Positions 3,077 to 34,615 of a DNA stretch of 34,615 nucleotides are shown piece after piece (position 1 is the first letter of the stretch; the number at the start of each line of letters is the position of its first letter). Made by a program: the position numbers and the translations under genes. The DNA is taken from contig JAISCQ010000034.1 of assembly GCA_031265445.1 (NCBI GenBank), positions 1-34,615 on the forward strand, written 5' to 3'. Source of the DNA: Bacteroidales bacterium (lineage in GTDB: Bacteria > Bacteroidota > Bacteroidia > Bacteroidales > UBA4181). A model generated the notes under the pieces. The model ran no database searches, had not been told where the DNA came from, and saw nothing but the letters and a program-made list of their open reading frames with translations.

Positions 3077-3649
3077 TTGTATTACTTAACTGATGATCCT
3101 GTTTTATTTCCTGCGATCGGTTCATCCATTGACGGAAAAACGCCTGATATTAAGGGGCAAATATCCGGGAACGGTTCTGCTCAATATGTCGTGAGCGATT
3201 TGAATGATTATCAAAACAATGCATTAAAAGACTATTTTGTTTGCGAAGTAAAAAATGATACCGAATCGTATGAAGAATTTTGGGAAAGACTGCAAAATGA
3301 AGTTGACAGGGGAGAAATCATTATTGGGACATATAGTACTAATCACGTATTTATGATTGTTCCTGGGGGAATGATTGATGTTGTTGATAATACAGAAATT
3401 GTTGAAAGTGACAATGGTACAAAAAGTAGAATATTTAAAAACAAAAACTATGTATCCGATCCTAAAATATTTGAAGGCGATAAGTGGGGCTATTCATTTC
3501 TCAATAAGGGAGTTGAAAATATTTATCGTGTTCCAAGAATATTGGAATGTGGCGTAAATGTAAAATCCTCAAACGCACCCATATATGCTAATATGGACTA
3601 TAAAGGAAGCAAAGCAATAAAATGGTTTAAATATATTAAAAACAAATAA
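3077..3649 (+). CDS. Putative toxin tip with papain-like Cys/His arrangement (continuation of 1713 ORF after frameshift)
   Basis: The nominal start is a TTG at 3077, but the frame is open back to 2912 and encodes natural-looking protein upstream (EAPEIITKDEV, then CNICTRAAL). This is therefore better read as the C-terminus of the ORF starting at 1713, separated by a TA-tract slip. Cysteines at 3053 and 3062 precede a helix-like stretch, and about 95 residues later comes NHVFMIVPG with a His at 3344 followed by an Asp-rich segment. That order resembles papain-like amidases or peptidases, but I cannot place it in a named family. The next gene starts 4 nt downstream and encodes an exported protein, its likely immunity partner. 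Confidence 0.5.
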   Translation: MYYLTDDPVLFPAIGSSIDGKTPDIKGQISGNGSAQYVVSDLNDYQNNALKDYFVCEVKNDTESYEEFWERLQNEVDRGEIIIGTYSTNHVFMIVPGGMIDVVDNTEIVESDNGTKSRIFKNKNYVSDPKIFEGDKWGYSFLNKGVENIYRVPRILECGVNVKSSNAPIYANMDYKGSKAIKWFKYIKNK

Positions 3650-3653
3650 TAAT

Positions 3654-4739
3654 ATGAAAAAAGTAATTATTATGACCGTAGTAATGAGTATTATGACATT
3701 GAATTTCTGTAAAAGCCAAAAGCGATACTCGTTTGAATTGGTAAAAGAAGTTATTGTACTAAAAGGATTATACTGGTATGAATTTCCATTTTACTATGGA
3801 AATTCAATATTAAGAGGCGTAGCAAATCCACTGGGTAATTCTTTGAAATTTTGGGAATATAATAAGAAACCTGAAAAAAATAATGTTGTTGATTCTTTAA
3901 TACTTAGGAATCAAAAATCTGTTGGAGGCATGAAAATAGATAATATGTTCATTCTTAATGGATACTTTAACATATCCGATGAATATGTGACAATACCCGT
4001 TGATTCTTTACCCTATAGCAAATTCCAGAATCAGGATACATGGACATATTTTAATGGGAAAAGTACTTTAATCAAATCCTTCCCTGTCTCCTACAGCGAT
4101 AAGAATATTGTACAACGAATATCTACAGACAAACGGTATTTAATTTTTAATCCATATTATGCTGGTATAGATATTCAAGCAGAACCTGATGACAATTTTA
4201 TCTATTTGTATGATTTGAAGAAAATACGACAGGGAATTGTTGAAGAAAATAAAATCTCATGTGATCGTTGTTATAATACATATGAGATGAATGACACTCT
4301 GATCTTTGGTAAAGAGTTTATTGTGGAAGAAAGAAGTATCGAATTTACATATAGTAATATTTATAAAGCGCCTATGAATAATATCAACGATACGACACTT
4401 CTAGCCAGAAATATGGAATTACTTAATATCACTCCTGATGGTAAATATATTTTAGGAAAACAATATTTATACGGAAAGAGTCTAACTATAATTTTAGATG
4501 TTGCATTGAAAAAATATCAATATATCATCGGAAGAAATTATCATTTAGAAGGAAATTTTTATTCATACCAAATGCAAAAATTTGCTTTTGATTTCGGGAC
4601 ACATTTTGTATATGTTGAATTTCCAGATGCCTACCCTTATGATGCCATGATACCATACAAAATAGACTGGTATTCGGATGCTGATGATAGGGCATTTTGG
4701 GAAAAGCATATATTGGAAGAACATCAACCCTTAAAATAA
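3654..4739 (+). CDS. Exported putative immunity protein for the orphan toxin tip
   Basis: A 361-residue protein with an N-terminal signal peptide: MKK, a hydrophobic run to about residue 17, then CKSQ. The Cys may be a lipidation site, but the context is not a classical lipobox. The body is rich in aromatic and beta-forming segments. Recurrent patterns such as KRYLIFNPYY, NFIYLYDLKK and DGKYILGKQY suggest a WD40-like or other beta-propeller. It starts 4 nt after the toxin-tip ORF and is the last gene before the second 246-bp repeat. It is unrelated in sequence to the first immunity candidate, as expected for a different toxin tip. The propeller assignment is a visual impression. Confidence 0.55.
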   Translation: MKKVIIMTVVMSIMTLNFCKSQKRYSFELVKEVIVLKGLYWYEFPFYYGNSILRGVANPLGNSLKFWEYNKKPEKNNVVDSLILRNQKSVGGMKIDNMFILNGYFNISDEYVTIPVDSLPYSKFQNQDTWTYFNGKSTLIKSFPVSYSDKNIVQRISTDKRYLIFNPYYAGIDIQAEPDDNFIYLYDLKKIRQGIVEENKISCDRCYNTYEMNDTLIFGKEFIVEERSIEFTYSNIYKAPMNNINDTTLLARNMELLNITPDGKYILGKQYLYGKSLTIILDVALKKYQYIIGRNYHLEGNFYSYQMQKFAFDFGTHFVYVEFPDAYPYDAMIPYKIDWYSDADDRAFWEKHILEEHQPLK

Positions 4740-4778
4740 AATATAAATAAGTCAGGATAAAAATACGATTTTCCATTT

Positions 4779-5025
4779 CGGAGCTTCATCCAAACTCCAC
4801 CGCTCGCCGGAAGGGATATATCCGGCATAAAACAAGGCAGTTAACGGGAAAAGTGCAGCACAACCATGTGACTGACCGCGGCGAAGCCGTGAAAAAGAGA
4901 TAACAAATGAAAGGTGTAAGATAATGATATGATGACAGTTGGTGTTGTCAATAATTTACGTCGGTTCAGGAACCGCTTACCGCAGGGCAACTTAGCGAAG
5001 CAACCCCGTGATAAGCGGAATATCG
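4779..5025 (+). repeat. Copy 2 of the ~246-bp direct repeat
   Basis: This is about 95% identical to 1564-1809, including the same internal ATG-started reading frame and the 14-mer CAACTTAGCGAAGC (4988-5001). It begins 40 nt after the stop of the second immunity gene, the same relative position as copy 1. After identity ends at 5025 the sequence runs into the 21-bp minisatellite instead of a toxin fragment. The two copies bracket a ~2.97-kb toxin-immunity cassette (1810-4778). Confidence 0.85.
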
Positions 5026-5071
5026 GCGGCATAAGGGAGTATACTGGCCCTGTCAGTGGTCTGGATCCTGA

Positions 5072-5506
5072 CAGATACAAATGCTCGGATGTAAGATGCA
5101 AATGCATGGATGTAAGATGCAAATGCATGGATGTAAGATACGAATTCTCGAATGTAAGATTCGAATTCCCGGATGTAAGATACAAATTCCCGGATGTAAG
5201 ATGCGAATTCCCGAATGTAAGATGCGAATTCCCGAATGTAAGATACAAATTCCCGAATGTAAGATGCGAATTCTCAAATGTAAGATGCAAATTCCCGGAT
5301 GTAAGATGCGAATTCTCGAATGTAAGATGCGAATTCTCGAATGTAAGATTCGAATTCTCGAATGTAAGATACGAATTCTCGGATGTAAGATACGAATTCC
5401 CGGATGTAAGATACAAATTCTCGAATGTAAGATTCGAATTCTCGAATGTAAGATACAAATTCCCGGATGTAAGATGCGAAATTGCCGAATGTTAAAATAC
5501 AAATTG
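5072..5506 (+). repeat. 21-bp minisatellite, about 19 tandem units
   Basis: The unit is 21 bp: [GA]ATGTAAGAT, then one variable base, C[AG], then AATTC and [CT]CG. About 19 contiguous copies start with the ATGTAAG at 5089. A half unit precedes them and one or two decayed units end the array near 5506. The first two units carry AATGCATG in place of the AATTC part, and unit 19 has a 1-bp insertion. A 21-bp period keeps all frames open, so heptad-like ORFs appear on both strands; I do not call them genes. Variation is limited to a few alternating positions, which suggests ongoing homogenisation. There are no spacers, so it is not a CRISPR. Confidence 0.93.
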
Positions 5507-5578: not shown

Positions 5579-7399
5579 ATGAAAACTTTATCATTCCTAA
5601 AACATTGTTTGCCGGCCATATTAGCGGTGTCGGTGGTATTAGCGTCCTGTAAAAAGGATGATCCCGTATCGCCGGAACGTGCAGAAGAGGCAGTTTCTTC
5701 GATTCGCTTGAACGCTGCCATCACGGCAACGAGCAACGGACCACTGTATGCATACTCTACCATAGAGTTGATACTGGATGAGGATCACGTTATGTTTGCG
5801 CACTTAAGAGGCGTATATCTTATGTGGACTTACGACAGCATTTCGGTGGAGATTGAGGGAGTGCGGACGAAAATTACATACGATATAGACATCGAAAATA
5901 ACCGGGCAACCATCGCTCCCGATCCTTATTTCGCCATAACAGGCACGCTGACGCTCACCCTGCACATGAGCATTTTATACTCGCCCACGCCCGATGCCCT
6001 GCCTGTCGACAATAGTGACTGGAGACTGTTGCGTACGGAAACGGAAACAGTTCAATATCGGGTATTTAACAGTTTACCCAGACAGGCATTGAAACAGCCG
6101 GCACAGGGTACGGTCAATGCTACGATATATTATGTGCCTTCGGTGGGAGTACGGATGTCTCCCGATAACTACAAATACGAAATTACCCCGTCGCTGAGCC
6201 TGAATGGGACGCCCAAACCGCTCATCGCCGATCGAGCCAACGACTCGCTGTATTATTTCAATTATACAGGTACGCTGGAAAGCGGGCGAACATACGCTTT
6301 CTCGGTAACGGCAAAATGGTATCACAAAACCGGCGAGACATGGGCGCCATGTGATGCGCATTTTGACGAAACCGTAACATGGTTGATAAACACTACGGAA
6401 AACGCCTCGATAACGCTTTCTGCCGAAGACTTTGAATTCTCCTACCCATCAGACAGACAGGTGAATTTCCTGCGCAAAGAATACGGGAAAGGTTATTTCC
6501 GTCTGTACGATCGCGAAAAGATGAAGATGATGGACCATCACCGAAGTTACATCAGGATAAAAGATGTGAAATATGAGGATTTTATGGCGGGGCAGGAAGA
6601 AATCGTTTTCAACAGCACTTTGAACGTATTGGAGTACGTGATGCCGAACATACTGGAACCACAACGGGTTTATAAAGCCGAAATCATGGAAGTAGCTACC
6701 GGACAAGCCCTCTGTGCCTATTTTTTCAGAACCGGCAAGTTCGATAATTTTACGGAAAAATGGACTGCGCTTCAAACTTCTTTCATACCTGCGGAAAAAT
6801 GGAGAGATTTGCAAACAATAGACGGCTATTGGGTACATATCCAGAAATTTAACATAAAAAATCCCGAAGAAATATTGGATTGGTACGAGGCAGATGGTCA
6901 TCATCCGGAAATCATGCCGCTGATACAGTTTGAAACCCATGTGGACGAATGGTGGAAAACCACTTCGGACTGGTTAATTTACGGTCAGCCTTCCCTGTCG
7001 TTCAACAGGCGTAACGACGGGTACAAAAAGTTCGGATTTCCTCCGGTGAGAGCTATCGTGTTCGAAGCCAGTCCCGTTTTATTGTCTGATGAACAATGTG
7101 TAAGCGGAAATGTCACATTGCCGGCATATCCGGAATATAAATCGGTTTTTTCATGGTATGTTCAGACAATGACATACTGGGACAGCTTTTCGGCGCGTGA
7201 TAATGCGCAAAAAATACCGAAAGCGCAACGAACGAAATGGCAAATCATTGCCGCCGAGGATTATAAAGATATGCCTTATCTGAATTTGGATTTTGTATTT
7301 GGCGACCCGCCGGACAGTTATCCTTTAATGGATGCTTTCTATGTATTGCCGGGCATTAATGTAGAAACTACGGTCATTAGAAATATTCAGCTACCATGA
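5579..7399 (+). CDS. Large lipoprotein, first gene of a lipoprotein-FN3-barrel operon
   Basis: A 606-residue protein with a clear lipoprotein signal: a hydrophobic stretch ending VVLASC, followed by KKDDP. The Cys is at about residue 24. The mature part is beta-rich with repeated Ig-like strand patterns at about residues 40-300, which include several threonine-rich strands. I recognise no catalytic motif and cannot name a family. Its stop overlaps the start of the next gene in an ATGA, and that gene likewise overlaps the third. The protein is therefore likely co-made with an FN3 protein and an outer-membrane barrel, and may be a surface or periplasmic-face component of the same assembly. The upstream region up to 5507 shows no convincing promoter. 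Confidence 0.75.
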   Translation: MKTLSFLKHCLPAILAVSVVLASCKKDDPVSPERAEEAVSSIRLNAAITATSNGPLYAYSTIELILDEDHVMFAHLRGVYLMWTYDSISVEIEGVRTKITYDIDIENNRATIAPDPYFAITGTLTLTLHMSILYSPTPDALPVDNSDWRLLRTETETVQYRVFNSLPRQALKQPAQGTVNATIYYVPSVGVRMSPDNYKYEITPSLSLNGTPKPLIADRANDSLYYFNYTGTLESGRTYAFSVTAKWYHKTGETWAPCDAHFDETVTWLINTTENASITLSAEDFEFSYPSDRQVNFLRKEYGKGYFRLYDREKMKMMDHHRSYIRIKDVKYEDFMAGQEEIVFNSTLNVLEYVMPNILEPQRVYKAEIMEVATGQALCAYFFRTGKFDNFTEKWTALQTSFIPAEKWRDLQTIDGYWVHIQKFNIKNPEEILDWYEADGHHPEIMPLIQFETHVDEWWKTTSDWLIYGQPSLSFNRRNDGYKKFGFPPVRAIVFEASPVLLSDEQCVSGNVTLPAYPEYKSVFSWYVQTMTYWDSFSARDNAQKIPKAQRTKWQIIAAEDYKDMPYLNLDFVFGDPPDSYPLMDAFYVLPGINVETTVIRNIQLP

Positions 7400-9576: not shown

Positions 9577-11303
9577 AACCAGCCAGTTTCCTTTATATGA
9601 TGCGTTCGCGGGTAATCCCGTTCCTGATGGCCATAACAGTAATACCCCGTTTGCTGCATGGTCAGGATGTGGAAGCGGTTATCAAAGCGCCGCCGCTGAC
9701 CGCAAACGGCGGTATTGCGTTCAGCCAGATTGTTCAGGCGGCAGACAGGGGAAAAGCGCAAAGCCCGTATTCGTATTATCTCACGGGCAATCTCAACTTT
9801 AACTTCTTTGGCGCAGCGAATGTTCCGCTGTCGTTTGCCTTCAGCAACCAGCAATTCAGCGGCCGCGCATCGCTTCCGTTCAACCGTTTTTCCATCGCGC
9901 CATCCTGCAAGTGGATCAAAGCGTATGCCGGATATGCATCGTTACAATTTTCACCCTATACGCTTGCCGGGCACGAAATTTTCGGCGGAGGGGCAGAACT
10001 GTCGCCTCCCGGACGGTTCAAGTTTACCGCCATTTATGGACGCCTGAAAAAAGCGATATACGGGCAGGAGGGCGAACCGGCCTATCGACGTATGGGCGGA
10101 GGTTTCAAAGCAGAATATGCGGACGAACATTTTGATGCGGGCGTTAATATTTTCAAGGCGAAAGATATATCCGATCCGTCTGTTTTCCTGAACCCTGACA
10201 GCATCACGGTATTGCCGCAGGACAATCTTTCGGGCAGCGTTTACCTGAACGTCAGGCTTGCAGGGAAAGTACGCTATGGCGCTGAATACGGCGTCAGCGC
10301 AATGAACCGCGACATGAGAGGCAGCAAGGGCAACGCGCTGTTCGACAACAGCGGCGACGTTTCCGTTTACCATGCCATGCGCCATAACATAACCTGTACG
10401 TTGTCTGCGGGCGCTGTCGGAGCGTCGTATGAGCGCGTTGCGCCCAACTACGCCACGCTGGGCGCATATTATATGCTGAGCGACTTTGAAAACATCACGG
10501 CAAATTTTTCCACGGTCATCAAAGACGTAAACATCGCAGTGGACGGAGGTTATCAGCATGATAATCTGAAAAATCAGAAAAGCGCCGCTACTTCGCGCAT
10601 GATTTTTTCGGGCAGTGTATCCACCGCTATCGGGCAGAAATGGAATCTGGGAGCAAACGTGTCCAACGTACAGTCATACATGCACATCCGCGACATATAC
10701 AGGCAACTGTCGCAAACCAACGAATTTCAAAATCTGGACACGCTGGAATATACGCAAGTAAACCTGACTTCTTCGGCGAATGTCGCTTACCTGCTGCAAA
10801 ATACGGAACAGCAGCGACAGAGCATCTCTGCAGGTTTTATGTACCAGCGGGCGGCAGAGCAACAGGAATACACCGCTTACCGGGGTAACAACATCTACAA
10901 TGGCTCGCTTGTTTACCAGTTTTCGCATATCCCTGCAAAATGGAGCGTATCTGCATTTGTGAACTACAACCATAACCTGACGCCGGATATGTACACGGGC
11001 ACGGCAAGTTACAGCCTGTCCGCGCAGAAGAGCTTTACGGAAAAGCTACAGGGTGCGTTTGCCGCCACCTACAGCAACATGTCAGGTAACGGAGAAAACA
11101 TGGCAAATGTGTTGAACGTAAGGATTACAGGCGGATATGCTCTGCTGAAAAAACACAATTTCAGTCTTAGCGCGGCGGCTGTCCGCACCGGAAGTAAAAC
11201 TCAAAAGAACGTACAATACTCTATCAACCTTGCCTATGGCTATTCCTTCGGGATGACCGTTGCACGAAAAGATAAGAAGGTAGCGGTTTCAGGCAGTTTT
11301 TGA
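9573..11303 (+). CDS. Outer-membrane beta-barrel protein
   Basis: A 576-residue protein with a signal peptide (MRSRVIPFLMAIT to LLHGQ, about residue 30). The rest is amphipathic alternating beta strands rich in Tyr, Ser and Gly, ending with Phe, as in outer-membrane barrels. A conserved-looking segment, YTLAGHEIFGGGAELSPPG followed by FKFTAIYGRL, is one I associate with a recurrent Bacteroidota barrel type of unknown function. There is no TonB plug or carboxypeptidase-like domain, so it is not a SusC. It starts in a 4-bp ATGA overlap with the FN3 gene and is the last gene of the operon. It could be the membrane pore or anchor for the other two proteins. Confidence 0.8.
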   Translation: MKPASFLYMMRSRVIPFLMAITVIPRLLHGQDVEAVIKAPPLTANGGIAFSQIVQAADRGKAQSPYSYYLTGNLNFNFFGAANVPLSFAFSNQQFSGRASLPFNRFSIAPSCKWIKAYAGYASLQFSPYTLAGHEIFGGGAELSPPGRFKFTAIYGRLKKAIYGQEGEPAYRRMGGGFKAEYADEHFDAGVNIFKAKDISDPSVFLNPDSITVLPQDNLSGSVYLNVRLAGKVRYGAEYGVSAMNRDMRGSKGNALFDNSGDVSVYHAMRHNITCTLSAGAVGASYERVAPNYATLGAYYMLSDFENITANFSTVIKDVNIAVDGGYQHDNLKNQKSAATSRMIFSGSVSTAIGQKWNLGANVSNVQSYMHIRDIYRQLSQTNEFQNLDTLEYTQVNLTSSANVAYLLQNTEQQRQSISAGFMYQRAAEQQEYTAYRGNNIYNGSLVYQFSHIPAKWSVSAFVNYNHNLTPDMYTGTASYSLSAQKSFTEKLQGAFAATYSNMSGNGENMANVLNVRITGGYALLKKHNFSLSAAAVRTGSKTQKNVQYSINLAYGYSFGMTVARKDKKVAVSGSF

Positions 11304-11443: not shown

Positions 11444-11668
<225 letters not shown>

Positions 11669-24229: not shown

Positions 24230-27151
24230 ATGAAAATGACAAAAATCTTATTCCCGATATTTATCGGGCTGTTGCTGACCTGTTGCAGCAAATCTCCCAA
24301 TCTTAAAAACGAATCCGATTGGCCGGCAGTAGGCTACGGGTATTTATCCGAAAACTTTAAGTCGCCGGATGCATTATACGGTGTGGATTGCTGGTGGTGG
24401 TGGCTTAACGGGAATGTTACCAAAGAAGCTATTACTAAAGACCTGGAAGCTATGAAATCGCGGAATTTCTTTGGCGCCATGATTTTCGACGCCGGCGGGC
24501 ACGATCAGGGCGGGCATAAAGATATCATCCCGGCCGGCCCCCTTTTCGGATCCAAAGAGTGGAACGACTTATTTGTTTTCGCTCTCGACGAAGCAAAAAG
24601 GCTGGGGCTGGAAATCGGATTCAACATACAAAGCGGCTGGAACCTGGGTGGCCCCCGTGTCACTGTGGAGCATGCCGCCAAACAGCTTACTTTTTCGGAA
24701 ACGAAAATTACGGGAGGTAACGGGGTAAATATTTCGTTGAAAACGCCACATAAGAACTATGATTTTTATAAAGACCTTGCGGTTTTGGCCTTCCCTTTAA
24801 AAGAGGAAAATATTTTGCAGGAGAGAATAACATTTTTGAGTTACAAACTCGGGCTGCACGAATTGGGCGGTTCCGCTCCCGATTGCCGTTTTTTACTTGA
24901 CAATAACCGTCCGGACAGGAACAGCGCCGGCACGGCTTATGTGTTAAAAAGAAGCGAGATTGTCGATATTACCGGAAATATGGATACGGACGGCAATCTG
25001 GCGTGGCAGGCCCCTGCGGGAGAATGGGGTATAATGAGGATCGGATATACCTGCACGCTGGCCGGGGTGTCGACCTCCAGCGAAGGGTGGAAGGGGAAAG
25101 TCCTGGATTACATGAGTAAAGAAGCCTTTGATTTCTATTGGAACGATGTCGTCAAGCCTGTTCTGCAGGCGGCGGGAGATCATGCCGGCACAACGCTTAA
25201 ATATATGGAAACCGATAGCTGGGAGTGCGGCGGAATGAACTGGACAGGCAATTTCCCAAATGAGTTCAAGTCCTTCTGCGGATATGATCTGCTGAAATAT
25301 TTGCCGGTAATCGGAGGATATGTGGTGGAGGATATCGGCACGTCGAACGCCTTTTTAGCCGACTTCAGGAAAACGATAGCCGAGCTGGTTGCAGTCAATC
25401 ATTACGGAGAGTTTGCAAACTGTGCCCACAAATATAATATGGGCATACAGCCCGAATCGGCAGGGCCTCACGCAGGGCCGCTCGACGGAATCAAGAATTA
25501 CGGATATAGCGATATCGTGATGAGTGAATTTTGGTCGCCCTCGCCTCACCGCCCTGCTCCCGGGAACCGGTTTTTCCTGAAACAGGCCTCTTCTGCGGCG
25601 CATATTTACGGTAAAAGAATTGTCGGTGCGGAATCATTCACTACCATAGGCCCGCACTGGAACGACGAGTTGTGGCGCAACCAGAAATCTTCGTTCGACC
25701 ATGAGATCTGTGCAGGGCTTAACCGTATGTATTTCCACACGTTTACCAGTTCTCCCGGGGAGATGGGGCTTCCGGGGCAGGAATATTTCGCCGGAACGCA
25801 CGTAAACCCGCAGGTTACGTGGTGGAACGAGTCAGGCCCTTTTATTGATTATATTCGTCGTACGCAGACTGTCGTTCAGAATGGAACATTTGTCGGCGAT
25901 GTTCTTTATTACTACGGAGACCATGTTCCCAATGTCTTTCCCTTCAAACATTCCGATCCCGCCGGTGTTATGCCCGGGTTCGATTATGACGTAACCAGCG
26001 AGGATATACTTTTGAAGCTTCAAGTGGAAAAGGGTAAAATATACGTTCCCGGCGGTATCCGGTACGAAGTTTTAGTCCTTCCGGATCATAGGGTATTATC
26101 TCTCCGGGCATTGGAAAAAGTCGAAACCCTGTTAAAAGACGGCGCCTGCATTACAGGATACAAGCCCGAACGCTGTATAAGTTTGTCGGGAGGCGAAAAA
26201 GCCCAAAGCCGCTTCCATGAGCTTGCAGATAAAATATGGGGGCCTGCATCCGAAAAAGGAGAGAACAAATACGGCAAAGGCTTGGTAACCTGGGGAATTT
26301 CCGCCCGCGAGTATCTTTTAAATAAAGGAATCGGGGCCGATTTTCAAATTGCAGGCAACAGCGATGTGGACACATACGACTACATTCATTATGTCGTAGC
26401 GGAGAAAGACGTCTACTTTGTAAGTAACCAGACCGGGGAGCGGGTAGATATGAACTGCACTTTCCGCATCTCCGGCTTCAGGCCCGAATTATGGGACGCT
26501 CTTTCAGGAGAGATAAGAATAGCCGGCGCTTTTACCCAAAAAGAAGGAACCACTACCGTACCGTTGACACTGGAGCCTTACGGGGCTGTATTTGTCGTTT
26601 TTAACGAGCCGGTAAGCAAAGACCTGCAGGGAACAGCGCAAGGAAATTATCCGGATTATGTAGCCGTAAAAGATATAAACGGTCCGTGGGTTGTCAATTT
26701 CGACCCCGCATGGGGAGGCCCCCAATCGGTCGAATTTGCCGGACTCACAGACTGGACACAGCATCCCGACCAGGGTATCAAATATTATTCGGGAGCTGCT
26801 GTGTATCACAGTACATTCACCATAGACTTTACTCCGGAGAAAGGAAAATCATACGTTCTTCAGCTGGAAAATGTAAAGGACGTGGGGATAGCCGCTGTAA
26901 CGATCAATGGAAAATACAGGGGAGTGGCGTGGACAAAACCTTTCAGGGTTGATATAACCGGCGACTTGAAGAGTGGAGACAATACGCTCGGAATAAAAGT
27001 AGTGAACTCGTGGTACAACCGGGTTCTCGGCGATGAGATCGGCATCGGCGAAAAACGCTTTACTTCCACCAACATCGTATTGAGAAAAACAACCCCGGAA
27101 CCCTCCGGTTTAATTGGGCCTGTAAGAATTATGGAGGAAAAATGGAATTAA
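24230..27151 (+). CDS. GH106-family glycoside hydrolase, paralog 2
   Basis: 973 residues with lipobox LLLTCC (Cys about 18). The start of the mature domain has the textbook CWWWWLNGNVTKEAITKDLE. SGWNLGGPRVTVEHAAKQL replaces the usual PGW...GGPWV segment, a visible divergence. Putative catalytic Glu332 lies in METDSWECGG and Glu468 in ESFTT; SEFW has Glu433. A GH2-like C-terminal sandwich contains NFDPAWGGP, DWTQHPDQGIKYYSG and NSWYNRVLGDE. A 113-nt gap with a GCCAATTGGC palindrome (24185-24194) precedes it and might hold a regulatory site. Its stop overlaps by 10 nt the start of a truncated duplicate of the next GH106 gene. Confidence 0.87.
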   Translation: MKMTKILFPIFIGLLLTCCSKSPNLKNESDWPAVGYGYLSENFKSPDALYGVDCWWWWLNGNVTKEAITKDLEAMKSRNFFGAMIFDAGGHDQGGHKDIIPAGPLFGSKEWNDLFVFALDEAKRLGLEIGFNIQSGWNLGGPRVTVEHAAKQLTFSETKITGGNGVNISLKTPHKNYDFYKDLAVLAFPLKEENILQERITFLSYKLGLHELGGSAPDCRFLLDNNRPDRNSAGTAYVLKRSEIVDITGNMDTDGNLAWQAPAGEWGIMRIGYTCTLAGVSTSSEGWKGKVLDYMSKEAFDFYWNDVVKPVLQAAGDHAGTTLKYMETDSWECGGMNWTGNFPNEFKSFCGYDLLKYLPVIGGYVVEDIGTSNAFLADFRKTIAELVAVNHYGEFANCAHKYNMGIQPESAGPHAGPLDGIKNYGYSDIVMSEFWSPSPHRPAPGNRFFLKQASSAAHIYGKRIVGAESFTTIGPHWNDELWRNQKSSFDHEICAGLNRMYFHTFTSSPGEMGLPGQEYFAGTHVNPQVTWWNESGPFIDYIRRTQTVVQNGTFVGDVLYYYGDHVPNVFPFKHSDPAGVMPGFDYDVTSEDILLKLQVEKGKIYVPGGIRYEVLVLPDHRVLSLRALEKVETLLKDGACITGYKPERCISLSGGEKAQSRFHELADKIWGPASEKGENKYGKGLVTWGISAREYLLNKGIGADFQIAGNSDVDTYDYIHYVVAEKDVYFVSNQTGERVDMNCTFRISGFRPELWDALSGEIRIAGAFTQKEGTTTVPLTLEPYGAVFVVFNEPVSKDLQGTAQGNYPDYVAVKDINGPWVVNFDPAWGGPQSVEFAGLTDWTQHPDQGIKYYSGAAVYHSTFTIDFTPEKGKSYVLQLENVKDVGIAAVTINGKYRGVAWTKPFRVDITGDLKSGDNTLGIKVVNSWYNRVLGDEIGIGEKRFTSTNIVLRKTTPEPSGLIGPVRIMEEKWN

Positions 27152-27333
27152 ACTTAAAAACCTGTATAAACATGCATTATATACTTAAAATCTCAGCTTT
27201 ATCTGTTTTGATATTTGCGTCCTGCACGCAGTCAGCAGAATTTTCCGTCCTGGAGGAAGCATTCCTGAATCCTCCTGATGCTGCACGTCCCGGTGTATAC
27301 TGGTACTTCATGGATGGTTCCTGGAAGTATTAA
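27142..27333 (+). pseudogene. Truncated 5' duplicate of GH106 paralog 3
   Basis: It keeps the start, lipoprotein signal (LIFASC) and first ~35 mature residues of the gene at 28038, then diverges after YWYFMDG and stops five codons later. Bases 27146-27318 match 28045-28217 with only 2 mismatches. Its ATG overlaps the upstream hydrolase stop, which looks like the original operon junction. This suggests an insertion of ~726 bp split or duplicated the gene start. It may still be translated into a 63-residue lipopeptide. Confidence 0.85.
27146..27318 (+). repeat. 173-bp direct repeat, copy A
   Basis: 173 bp with 171 matches to 28045-28217 at an exact offset of 899 bp. It covers the signal-peptide coding part of the third GH106 gene. 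Near-identity indicates a recent duplication or gene conversion. Confidence 0.93.
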
Positions 27334-27337
27334 AATG

Positions 27338-27640
27338 AGATTTTCGACAATGTCAACAATTTGCGGACGACCGTCGGGAAGGTTTCGACAATGTCAACGG
27401 CTTGCGGACGACCGTCGGGAAGGTTTCGACAATGTCAACGGCTTGCGGACGACCGTCGGGGACGTTTCGACAAATTCGATAGACTGCGGACGACCGTCGG
27501 GAACGTTTCGACAATGTCAACGGCTTGCGGACGACCGTCGGGAAGATTTCGACAATGTCGACGGACTGCGGACGACCGTCGGGAAGATTTCGACAATGTC
27601 GACGGACCGCGGACGACCGTCGGGAACGTTTCTACAATGT
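27338..27640 (+). repeat. 41-bp minisatellite, 7-8 units
   Basis: The phase marker TTTCGAC (TTTCTAC in the last unit) recurs at 27342, 27383, 27424, 27465, 27506, 27547, 27588 and 27629, exactly 41 bp apart. The most conserved core is GCGGACGACCGTCGGGAA, which contains the small inverted repeat GACG-AC-CGTC. Because 41 is not a multiple of three, each unit changes frame, yet no + strand stop occurs in any frame. I treat the ORFs across it as spurious. There are no spacers, so it is not a CRISPR. Confidence 0.93.
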
Positions 27641-27695
27641 AGAAGCCGAAGTGTGAAGAAAAAATGATTGTTATAAAAATAAAATTTAAAAATAG

Positions 27696-28031
27696 ATGAT
27701 GATGAGTAAGGAAATTTTAACTTACAAAGGAGTATTTCAGCGTTTGACCGTTTCGCAGAATTTGCAGATACTGCATGCTATCCATACGGATGTTCAAGCT
27801 TATGCGATGAGAGCGCCGAACATTCAGCCCGTATTTGAGACCTTCGGTACGGAACTTTCGAATCTCGACAGCTTTTTCAGGAAAAATTCAAAAGCCTTTG
27901 AAACGGAAAATACTGTTAAAAAGGATGCCGCCCGCGACTTCACTGTTCGCGCCGTCATTGCCAAAGCGCAGTATCACTGCGATTTTGCCATGACCGGCGG
28001 AAAAGACGGGGAAACGGAAACACAGGAGTAA
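27696..28031 (+). CDS. Small protein resembling the N-terminal half of DUF6261 proteins
   Basis: A 111-residue cytoplasmic-looking, helical and charged protein. There are three consecutive ATGs (27696, 27699, 27702). The pattern YKGVFQRLTVSQNL, then VFETFGTELSNLDSFFR, then DAARDFTVRAVI resembles the helical DUF6261 family, multi-copy in Bacteroidales and usually about twice as long. That match is from memory and weak. It lies between the 41-bp minisatellite and the third GH106 gene, whose ATG is 6 nt after this stop. It is unlike its neighbours (not exported, no hydrolase motif), consistent with having arrived with the minisatellite. Confidence 0.5.
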   Translation: MMMSKEILTYKGVFQRLTVSQNLQILHAIHTDVQAYAMRAPNIQPVFETFGTELSNLDSFFRKNSKAFETENTVKKDAARDFTVRAVIAKAQYHCDFAMTGGKDGETETQE

Positions 28032-28037
28032 AATCAG

Positions 28038-31000
28038 ATGAAAAAATTAAACTTAAAAACCTGTATACACATGCATTATATACTTAAAATCTCAGCTTTA
28101 TCTGTTTTGATATTTGCGTCCTGCACGCAGTCGGCAGAATTTTCCGTCCTGGAGGAAGCATTCCTGAATCCTCCTGATGCTGCACGTCCCGGTGTATACT
28201 GGTACTTCATGGATGGTAATCTGTCGAAGGACGGGATGACAAAAGACCTCGAATCGATGCAGAAAGCCGGAATCGGTAATCTGGTATATCTGGAAATCAA
28301 TGGAGGCATACCACGTGGAAAAGTAGATTTCCTGACTGATGAATGGAATGATCTGTTTGGGTATGCCGTGTCGGAGAGCGAGCGGTTAGGAATAGACATT
28401 ACCCTGGGTGTCGGCCCGGGATGGACAGGCAGTGGAGGCCCATGGGTGAACGCCGCAGCCTCCATGCAGCACCTGGTATTTTCATCAACAACTGTTAACG
28501 GAGGTAAAAAACAACACATCCGGCTGTCAAAACCCGAGCCCAAACTTCCGTTTTTTGGTGAAAGGGCATTCACACCCCAGGTAAAAGAACAGTGGGAAGG
28601 TTTTTATGAAGACGTTGCCGTCCTTGCTTTTCCGGCAGGAAGATCGGAAATAGGCCGGGAAAAAACCGAAGGCAAACAGTACATGGAGCTGACCCGTATC
28701 GAAGAAGAGGCGCTGTATTACCGCAAGCCATACAGCTCGGTTCCCCATGTAAAAGCATACCTTCCTACCATAATAAACTATGCCGCTCAGCCCGGCGACA
28801 AGCCGGTGGCTAAAAGCGAAATCATTGACCTTACCGCCCGTTTGCAGGCCGACGGATCGCTCGAGTGGGATGTACCTCCCGGAAAATATACCGTTATGCG
28901 CTTCGGCAGCCGGAACAATGGCGCGGTATCACGTCCTGCGCCACTGCCTGGAGTTGGCCTGGAATGTGACAAATTCGATACTGTCGCCCTGAATGCACAC
29001 CTCGATTATTTTCCCGGAAATTTATTGAAACATATAGGCTTCACAAAGGCAAAACCATCAGGCGGCCTGCGTATGTTGCATATGGACAGTTGGGAAATGG
29101 GCGCACAAAACTGGACTCAGCGCTTTCGCGAGGAATTTGCCAGCCGGCGGGGATACGATCCTCTGCCGTTCTACCCCGTATATGCGGGAAAAATGGTGGA
29201 AAGCCGGGAAATAAGCGAACGCTTTCTCTGGGACTTGCGGCAAACAGCACAGGAACTCGTACTGGAAAACCATGCAGGACACATCAAACGTTACGCACAT
29301 AGACGCGGCCTGGGGCTTTCCATCGAACCCTACGATATGAATCCCACATCCGACCTCGAACTGGCCGCCGTAGCCGATATGCCGATGTGTGAATTCTGGG
29401 GTGCAGGCGGGCACAATACATCATTCAGCGTCATGGAAGGAACCTCGGCCGCACATATCACCGGCCAGCCTGTTGTACCTGCCGAAGCTTTTACATCGCG
29501 CGACAGGTGGGAGCAGCATCCTGCTTCCATGAAAAACCGGAACGACTGGGCTTTTGCTTCCGGGATCAACCGACTGGTTTACCATACCTTCCAGCATCAG
29601 CCATTAGATGACAAATATCGCCCGGGGATGACCATGGGACCCTATGGCGTTCAATGGAACAGGCATCAGACCTGGTGGCCTATGGCCGATGCCTATCACC
29701 GGTATGTATCGCGCAGCCAGTTCATGCTACAGCAGGGACGAACCGTTGCCGATATACTCTACCTTATCCCCGAAGGAGCGCCTCATGTATTCCGTGCTCC
29801 TGCTTCTGCTCTTGACGGCGAACTCCCTGAACTGCCCGACCGTAAAGGATATAACTTTGATGCCTGTCCTACAAGCCTGTTATATTCGGCAACAGTAAAA
29901 GATGATTGTATTGTATTTCCCGGTGGAGCTACATACCGGATGATGGTACTTCCCGATATCGAAACCATGACTCCGCAGTTATTGGGAAAAATAAAGGAAC
30001 TGATATACAGCGGTGCAACAGTTGTCGGGGTTCCGCCGAAAAAATCACCCAGTTTAGTCGATTATCCGGCCTGTGACGAACAGTTAAAAAAACTTGTGAA
30101 TGAAATATGGGGTGGTTTTGATGCTCCCGAAAGGCAGGAAAGTCGTACATCGGGCAAAGGTAAAATTATCTGGAGCGCCGATATGCGCACCAATGCGGAA
30201 AACCTGTACCCCAGCTACAGTATCACGGCAAATATCCTTTCGGGGATGGGTATTCCCGAAGATTTCCGTACTGATGCACCGGTACGGTATACCCACCGTA
30301 CAATGGACGGTTGCGATATTTATTTTGCAGCCAGCCGGAGCGCCGAAAACATAACAGCCGGCTGTACATTCCGTATTTCGGGGAAAAAGCCGGAACTGTG
30401 GGATCCCATCAGCGGAACAGTCAGGGAAATGCCCGAATATACCGCCGGCAACGGACAGGTCAATCTCATGATTCCTTTTGAACCGCACCAGAGCTACTTT
30501 ATCGTATTCCGCAAAAAAGGCAGTCCCTCTTCCGGAGGTAAAAACTTCCCCGGGAAAAAAAAGGTAGCAACACTGGAAGCGCCCTGGCAGGTATCTTTCG
30601 ATCCGGCATGGGGCGGGCCCGAAAAAATTACTTTCGATCGTTTAACCGACTGGTCGCAGCACCCCGATCAGGGCATTAAATACTATTCGGGAACGGCTGT
30701 TTACCGGCAACAGTTTGACAAACCCGATACCAAAGCAAAAAGACTGATCCTCGATCTGGGTAATGTAAAGAACATGGCTCGCGTATCGCTCAACGGCAAA
30801 GAGCTTGGCGTGGTGTGGACGGCGCCCTGGCAGGTGGACATCACAGAAGCTGTTAAGAAAAAGGGAAATGAACTGAAAATAGAAGTAGTGAACCTATGGG
30901 CTAACCGGCTGATCGGCGATGAACAGTTACCCTGCGACGGAATAGAGGATGGCCGGTGGCCGGAATGGCTGCTCAACGGAATGCCGCGTACCGGCGGAAG

Positions 31001-31100
31001 GTATACATTTACCACCTGGCGCCATTATACCAAAGATTCGCCTTTACTGGAATCAGGATTACTGGGGCCGGTAACCATACTTGAATCAGCCGGCCGCTGA
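28038..31100 (+). CDS. GH106-family glycoside hydrolase, paralog 3
   Basis: 1020 residues with lipobox LIFASC. YWYFMDGNLSKDGMTKDLE and GPGWTGSGGPWV mark the GH106 N-terminal region. Putative catalytic Glu353 lies in MDSWEMGAQNW and Glu483 in EAFTS; CEFW has Glu452. The C-terminal GH2-like sandwich has SFDPAWGGP, DWSQHPDQGIKYYSG, LNGKELGVVWTAPWQ and NLWANRLIGDE, ending in SGLLGPVTI. The C-terminal layout (an insert before GRYTFTTW) is shared with the next gene, so these two look like the closest pair. Its first ~60 codons are duplicated upstream at 27142. It lacks its own visible promoter. Confidence 0.89.
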   Translation: MKKLNLKTCIHMHYILKISALSVLIFASCTQSAEFSVLEEAFLNPPDAARPGVYWYFMDGNLSKDGMTKDLESMQKAGIGNLVYLEINGGIPRGKVDFLTDEWNDLFGYAVSESERLGIDITLGVGPGWTGSGGPWVNAAASMQHLVFSSTTVNGGKKQHIRLSKPEPKLPFFGERAFTPQVKEQWEGFYEDVAVLAFPAGRSEIGREKTEGKQYMELTRIEEEALYYRKPYSSVPHVKAYLPTIINYAAQPGDKPVAKSEIIDLTARLQADGSLEWDVPPGKYTVMRFGSRNNGAVSRPAPLPGVGLECDKFDTVALNAHLDYFPGNLLKHIGFTKAKPSGGLRMLHMDSWEMGAQNWTQRFREEFASRRGYDPLPFYPVYAGKMVESREISERFLWDLRQTAQELVLENHAGHIKRYAHRRGLGLSIEPYDMNPTSDLELAAVADMPMCEFWGAGGHNTSFSVMEGTSAAHITGQPVVPAEAFTSRDRWEQHPASMKNRNDWAFASGINRLVYHTFQHQPLDDKYRPGMTMGPYGVQWNRHQTWWPMADAYHRYVSRSQFMLQQGRTVADILYLIPEGAPHVFRAPASALDGELPELPDRKGYNFDACPTSLLYSATVKDDCIVFPGGATYRMMVLPDIETMTPQLLGKIKELIYSGATVVGVPPKKSPSLVDYPACDEQLKKLVNEIWGGFDAPERQESRTSGKGKIIWSADMRTNAENLYPSYSITANILSGMGIPEDFRTDAPVRYTHRTMDGCDIYFAASRSAENITAGCTFRISGKKPELWDPISGTVREMPEYTAGNGQVNLMIPFEPHQSYFIVFRKKGSPSSGGKNFPGKKKVATLEAPWQVSFDPAWGGPEKITFDRLTDWSQHPDQGIKYYSGTAVYRQQFDKPDTKAKRLILDLGNVKNMARVSLNGKELGVVWTAPWQVDITEAVKKKGNELKIEVVNLWANRLIGDEQLPCDGIEDGRWPEWLLNGMPRTGGRYTFTTWRHYTKDSPLLESGLLGPVTILESAGR
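28045..28217 (+). repeat. 173-bp direct repeat, copy B
   Basis: Second copy of the signal-peptide-coding duplication (see 27146-27318), here continuous with the full gene body. Confidence 0.93.
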
Positions 31101-34110: not shown

Positions 34111-34615
34111 CTAACTTTAATAACACCGTCGACCTGTCAGGTCGCGTCGATCGCGCCGTTGAGCCGAATTTTCATAACCGCAGGTCGCGACCTGCGGAAA
34201 GGAGATGTCTCGCGGAGGAGAGACGCGTCTTCCGCAAGCTTCGCTTCGCTTGCATGCGCCGTTGAGCCCCGTTGAGCGGCATTTACCTTACGGTGAGATC
34301 GCTTCGCTAAGTTGTAATGCCGCTCGGAACACGAGGCAATTTGTAATTGCCTGCGGTGAGAACGCGTGGGAATAGCGCCCGACCTGACAGGGTCGGCAGA
34401 CCTGTCAGGGTCAAAAGGGTCGTCAGGGTCAAATCCGCAATTGAACGCTGTTGATGCACGCGGATTTCAGGCAAAGATGCAGGGTTTCGTCCATATATGC
34501 AGGGTTAAGCGGCAATTCCCCTACGATTAGAAATCGTTGATTAAATGAATTTAACTGATACGTGCTACAACCGTTTCTAATGAACTTGTTTTTACGAAAA
34601 ATATGGTTGTAATAA
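34111..34615 (+). repeat. Gene-free zone dense in inverted repeats
   Basis: No ORF with coding character. Palindromes seen: GACCTG-T-CAGGTC (34131-34143), the perfect CCGCAGGTCG/CGACCTGCGG (34178-34197), GCGGCATT/AATGCCGC (34276-34283 with 34316-34323), AGGCAATT-TGT-AATTGCCT (34334-34352) and AAATCCGC/GCGGATTT (34431-34438 with 34460-34467). Others are ACGATT-AGA-AATCGT and TACAACC/GGTTGTA near the end. Short direct motifs GTCAGGGTC and ATGCAGGGTT recur. GCTTCGCTAAGTTG at 34301-34314 is the reverse complement of a 14-mer in both 246-bp repeats. It resembles composite REP-type intergenic repeats. No T-rich terminator is obvious. Confidence 0.75.

Follow-up and report, generated by a model that had tools for sequence, protein, structure and literature searches.

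Comparison with described systems

REP/BIME elements are dispersed palindromic repeats linked to RAYT genes, with a Y1 transposase. The module that recurs in the sequences studied here is similar in that dispersed palindromic repeats are tied to a gene family, DUF6261, but it differs in that its repeats are tandem units with a fixed 41/42-bp period and its protein is predicted to be a helical bundle. No match between DUF6261 and the Y1 HUH transposase (RAYT) was found by sequence, and the predicted fold is all-helical. The family itself is defined as PF19775 (DUF6261), to which a sister copy on contig C242 belongs; the gene at the present locus is 95% identical to that copy over the shared part. 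The upstream array is absent from the descriptions of PF19775 that were found.

Duplicated stretches beside an insert, with short shared sequence at the junctions, have likewise been described for homology-facilitated illegitimate recombination or single crossover (PMC3240628) and for template switching (PMC3161906). Those events were seen in laboratory E. coli, whereas the one discussed below is deduced from one assembly.

Duplicated start of a GH106 gene

The window, meaning the whole stretch of 34,615 nucleotides that was analysed (contig JAISCQ010000034.1 of assembly GCA_031265445.1, from a Bacteroidales bacterium), includes a SusC/SusD locus with four GH106 genes. Two of these, in the same operon and on the forward strand, border the rearrangement. 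The upstream GH106 (alpha-L-rhamnosidase) gene occupies 24230 to 27151 (PF17132, E 1.5e-151), and its C-terminus could be aligned to a paralogue on contig C43. The second, at 28038 to 31100 (PF17132, E 7.7e-185), is intact, with 1,020 codons and a lipoprotein-type signal peptide; contig C92 and other genomes carry homologues that are 62 to 68% identical.

A first-pass annotation of the window had reported a 173-bp direct repeat with an offset of 899 bp and 2 mismatches, and this was reproduced exactly by sequence comparison. Copy 1 (27146 to 27318, forward strand) is a truncated start of the second GH106 gene, and copy 2 (28045 to 28217, forward strand) is contiguous with the intact gene. The copies are 98.8% identical, differing at 27169 (A/C) and 27234 (A/G). 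The pairing is far beyond chance, with an E value of 3e-83 compared with 1e-4 for the next match, a paralogous enzyme gene, and no third copy of the 173-bp stretch was found in the genome assembly. As had been described, a 41-bp array and a foreign-looking small gene lie between the copies, and copy 1 is contiguous with the end of the preceding GH106 gene, whose TAA stop (27149 to 27151) lies in the first bases of the copy. The assignment of copy 2 as the start of the real gene also held: five homologues read through YFMDGN, a continuation which among the copies is found only in copy 2, while the frame of copy 1 breaks after YFMDG and reaches a stop four codons on. Copy 2 is therefore the gene and copy 1 a fragment.

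The description thus proved accurate overall, except for the start codon. The longer start at 28038 (MKKLNLK...) is in part junction sequence, and the likely start codon of the second GH106 gene is ATG 28071 (MHYILKISALSVLIFASC), within the duplicated stretch. Foreign-looking DNA has been inserted at the head of this gene, with the lipoprotein-type signal peptide kept via copy 2. That the insertion is recent finds rough support in the near identity of the two 173-bp copies and in the module gene parts, which are ~95% identical between the window and two sister copies. The uninterrupted operon, which the annotation had proposed to look for in relatives, was sought in nine genomes of the genus and was not found; these genomes contained only the 62 to 68% identical GH106 homologues, in other contexts. 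The empty site, an operon without the insert, is one that we infer.

The insert and its sister copies

Between the duplicated stretches, all on the forward strand, lie a left remnant of a module leader (TCCTGGAAGTATTAAAATGAGAT, 27319 to 27341), delimited by comparison with the copies L010 and L118; a 41-bp tandem array of 7.3 copies (27342 to 27640); an internally deleted DUF6261 (PF19775) gene of 111 codons (27696 to 28031); and the right junction (28032 to 28044) after the stop of this small gene. The array ends 56 bp ahead of the first ATG of the small gene. Its units hold CGACCGTCG palindromes, with CGACAATGTCG palindromes in some copies. At the point of the right junction, two sister copies have GGAGTAAAATGTT in common.

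A full-length sister gene of 265 codons is found on contig C242 of genome G000 (locus L009), and the window gene is 94.9% identical to it over 292 bp. The C242 copy is a PF19775 member (77.4 bits against a cut-off of 27). The window protein gave no match to the PF19775 model, because the domain is deleted: the middle of the gene and most of the domain are gone, GACCG is found at both ends of the deletion, and an 11-bp direct repeat marks the site of another, small deletion. A second deleted sister gene is present on contig C223. The three gene-bearing copies in the genome all follow an array of one 41-bp unit, and in both the window copy and L010 the internal deletions fall at short shared sequences.

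The window array family occurs at six other places, giving seven contexts in three genomes, and its ends vary. L010 and L118 keep the leader, while the window copy and L009 are cut near the array; compared with L010, the window copy is cut inside the leader, next to GGT, and retains just the 23 bp of it that adjoin the array. The L010 leader reaches further left, with 128 bp at 73% identity in common with L118 from another species, and part of this leader is also present at L119. At L119 and L120 the array stands alone, with no gene. These comparisons show that the insert represents a dispersed module composed of leader, 41-bp palindromic array, and DUF6261 gene, in a copy that has been truncated and has decayed.

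The full-length module in L009 adjoins a leucine-rich-repeat gene with 63-bp units (3582 to 5381), and a second array of these units begins at 5782.

Arrays upstream of DUF6261 genes

The association was examined at 89 DUF6261 loci with at least 300 bp of upstream sequence, a count that includes related copies, so that the loci are not independent. An array was scored when it had a period of 39 to 44 bp (or double), lay on the same strand, and fell within 450 bp upstream of the start codon; the module in the window is of this kind. Arrays were found upstream of DUF6261 in 67 of the 89 loci, at a median distance of 85 bp and with periods that were nearly all 41 or 42 (array-then-DUF6261 order seen among loci L046, L049, L102, L108, L121-L160, L178-L220, and L230-L237). 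These 67 arrays lie in 41 kb of upstream DNA, compared with 13 arrays of the 41-42-bp type or double in the remaining 448 kb of the same loci, and several of the 13 lie just past the 450-bp limit or 1.1 to 1.5 kb downstream of other DUF6261 starts. Modules made of a minisatellite and a small gene recur in the genome, where the first-pass annotation had suggested looking for them, and far beyond it.

DUF6261 is strongly expanded in the genus (20 matches each in genomes G000 and G006) and patchy in the order, with matches in 5 of 52 genera. The hosts are mostly Bacteroidales metagenome bins, whose isolate codes we take to denote termite-gut samples, and also include Fibrobacterota and the type strain FH5T of Draconibacterium orientale. 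In the closed D. orientale genome (NZ_CP007451), an array is present at 8 of the 10 DUF6261 genes, every one with a different unit, which rules out an assembly peculiarity. The signature of DUF6261 is a repeat period that is kept, at about four turns of the DNA helix, with a sequence that is not, and a single closed genome holds 10 copies of the gene.

A divergent DUF6261 branch in Tannerellaceae (L221-L223, L226, and L227) is without the upstream array; 42-bp arrays occur there ~1.1 to 1.5 kb downstream of the start codon.

Rfam and a plasmid search gave no match, and a phage collection yielded two unannotated fecal scaffolds with distant matches and without a 41/42-bp array. A search of full-text literature on DUF6261, PF19775, and such arrays, in which most subscription journals lay outside the coverage, returned nothing relevant. 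The combination of DUF6261 and array is seemingly undescribed.

Array units and the predicted protein

Units from close loci resemble one another in sequence, and those from distant loci are unrelated. A palindrome with an arm of at least 6 bp is present in 52% of units, compared with 5% of shuffled units. Among 62 less-related units, a second palindrome center was enriched ~10 to 11 and 15 to 16 bp from the first (z about 3 to 4, in a test devised after the data had been inspected), and another unit test gave its highest value at 21 bp; the enriched spacings are multiples of half a helical turn. Because 41 bp cannot be divided evenly into codons, the constraint is not a coding one. From these properties we infer that the array consists of protein sites on DNA, and the candidate binder is perhaps DUF6261 itself. 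RNA hairpins are the alternative; the window unit, folded as RNA, showed nothing unusual in its foldability (z 0.3).

The predicted model of a 244-residue DUF6261 member is wholly helical with a mean pLDDT of 95.3. Foldseek against PDB and viral models gave no match below E 0.001, the best VIA-align Z scores of 9 to 10 are such as unrelated helical bundles also reach, and a sequence search gave no convincing relative of solved structure. DUF6261 is therefore predicted, with high confidence, to be an all-helical bundle with no clear structural relative. The Avd protein of diversity-generating retroelements (DGR) and similar four-helix bundles are also small helical bundles, and Avd chain 8ube_D aligned with the DUF6261 model over 90 residues (Z 9.0). 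However, this Z score is typical of any helical bundle, there is no sequence match, and DUF6261 is about twice as long; the Avd match serves as a lead only. In a DGR, a reverse transcriptase with template and variable repeats accompanies Avd.

Taken together, the module could be an undescribed self-spreading one in Bacteroidota and Fibrobacterota, whose protein would recognize its own array while the array sequence diverges and the helical spacing is kept; the window would then hold a truncated offspring. We consider this possible but rather doubtful. The 173-bp duplication alone is an unusual yet explicable rearrangement, and it is the module that merits further study: it offers a tractable route to the role of DUF6261 and to the spread of small non-transposon modules in bacteria.

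Origin of the duplication

The first-pass annotation had stated that ordinary transposition does not fit, and this was upheld by the lack of constant or inverted ends, of a recognized transposase, and of any second duplication of such length. Insertion sequences and transposons are marked by short target-site duplications of fixed length (2 to 14 bp), compared with 173 bp in the window. No long abutting duplications were found at sister loci, where duplications of a few base pairs would be visible only against empty sites. Constant ends or terminal inverted repeats are a further mark; here the left ends differ between copies, and no inverted pair was found at the ends of the insert. The module protein matched no transposase or integrase family and had no clear fold match, although it may be an enzyme of an undescribed kind; the full-length copies carry DUF6261 only. 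Duplication of a target site by a transposase is an improbable origin of the 173-bp repeat, and we favor a join by template switching or recombination over transposition.

A test proposed in the first-pass annotation, whether each such insert is flanked by a duplicated gene start, came out negative. The comparison of left and right flanks covered 66 loci, each with an array upstream and no less than 150 bp of sequence to either side; a flanking direct repeat of any kind was present in 3 of them (the window, L010, and L148). The L148 repeat lies within a multi-copy repeat region. The L010 repeat was considered as a second target duplication, a reading that was rejected because the repeat is dispersed through the genome in more than 30 substantial copies. 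An abutting, gene-derived long duplication was thus seen at 1 of the 66 loci, the window, and flanking duplications were seen at 0 of the 8 array-bearing loci of the closed D. orientale genome. Target-site duplication as a general property of the module was rejected on these counts, and the long duplication is taken as an accident of the event in the window.

For that event we tentatively prefer homology-poor copying, most simply a template switch, although our confidence in it falls somewhat short of even. Replication of the operon would have left the enzyme gene 173 bp in, at a shared GGT; the module would then have been copied from elsewhere before synthesis resumed where the enzyme gene begins, giving the first 173 bp of that gene a second time. 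The signal peptide of the intact gene would be retained together with 26 bp of native upstream sequence, and the module would become the upstream neighbor of the gene, all in one event. Template-switch junctions in E. coli with a few base pairs of microhomology do yield duplications (PMC3161906). Further support comes from the identity of the module and its sister copies, the varied ends within the family, the internal deletions at short shared sequences, the restriction of the long duplication to one locus, and the missing match to a transposase, an integrase, or a clear fold. Against the template switch, the left junction in the window and the leader of L010 have only 3 bp (GGT) in common. 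At the right junction there is a resemblance to the 3' end of the gene before it (GGAG-AAAA), which was rejected as proof of template switching, as 5 to 12% of random sites score equally and the resemblance is not significant. The 85%-complete assembly also yielded no donor copy close to 99% identity, the nearest being ~95% identical in the gene part. A clock argument, setting the identity of the 173-bp copies against that of the module genes, was dropped because the differences were too few to decide.

Allelic recombination is a less likely source. In another lineage, the module would already have stood immediately before the enzyme gene, and DNA of that lineage would have entered either by a crossover through the enzyme gene on one side with an illegitimate join at GGT on the other, or as an 899-bp circle, carrying gene start and module, that integrated through one crossover. 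In either case recipient and donor would each have contributed one allele of the 173-bp stretch. A single crossover naturally leaves a homologous segment on both sides, and conjugation events in E. coli gave duplications of 109 to 950 bp (PMC3240628). The copies are allele-like in differing at 2 of 173 bases and in the changed junction. Against this, a filled allele must have existed beforehand, and none was observed. Direct repeats likewise flank the sister copy L010, but that dispersed repeat is so numerous in the genome that finding it to the left and right may be a matter of chance.

It is improbable that machinery of the module's own, or borrowed machinery, produced a 173-bp target duplication through a very wide staggered break or through reverse-transcription-like copying with left truncation. 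Variable left ends and a long duplication do recall target-primed retrocopies, the right ends of the three gene-bearing copies in the genome fall within a few bases of each other, and the genome has two partial reverse-transcriptase matches, at contig starts and off the contigs that carry the module. Such duplications are, however, absent at other loci, no inverted terminal repeats were found, the right ends in other families lie at varied distances from the stop (+20, +67, and +150), and the DUF6261 protein has no enzyme-like match.

An assembly artefact joining two strain variants, conceivable in a metagenome-type assembly of 309 contigs that is 84.8% complete, is very unlikely, since the copies are identical over no more than 84 bp at a stretch, below the k of 119 given in the contig names of sister assemblies and presumably used for GCA_031265445.1 as well, and the left junction runs on into real module leader that is also present at L010.

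Other repeats in the window and related genomes

Elsewhere in the window, a 21-bp array of 20.5 copies (also readable as 42-bp) occupies 5073 to 5505, ending ~70 bp before a 606-codon gene at 5579. It is without a DUF6261 gene and may be an orphan array or belong to a related system. Long, pure dinucleotide runs, unusual for bacteria, were observed at window positions 11512 to 11578, as (AG)33, and at 10808 to 10877 of contig C223 in G000, as (TC)35, where the run sits at the contig end.

A dispersed repeat of ~82 bp that begins with the palindrome CCGCAGGTCGCGACCTGCGG is present at 2239 to 2332 and 3115 to 3208 of L010 and at 34162 to 34197 of the window; of its more than 30 copies in the genome, several are near contig ends. 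Genome G006 has a dispersed repeat of 115 to 119 bp, noted for L121, L128, L130, and L136, which abuts the left side of the DUF6261 modules in L130 and L136 and lies on both sides of the module in L121. This repeat perhaps provides a path for recombination between modules.
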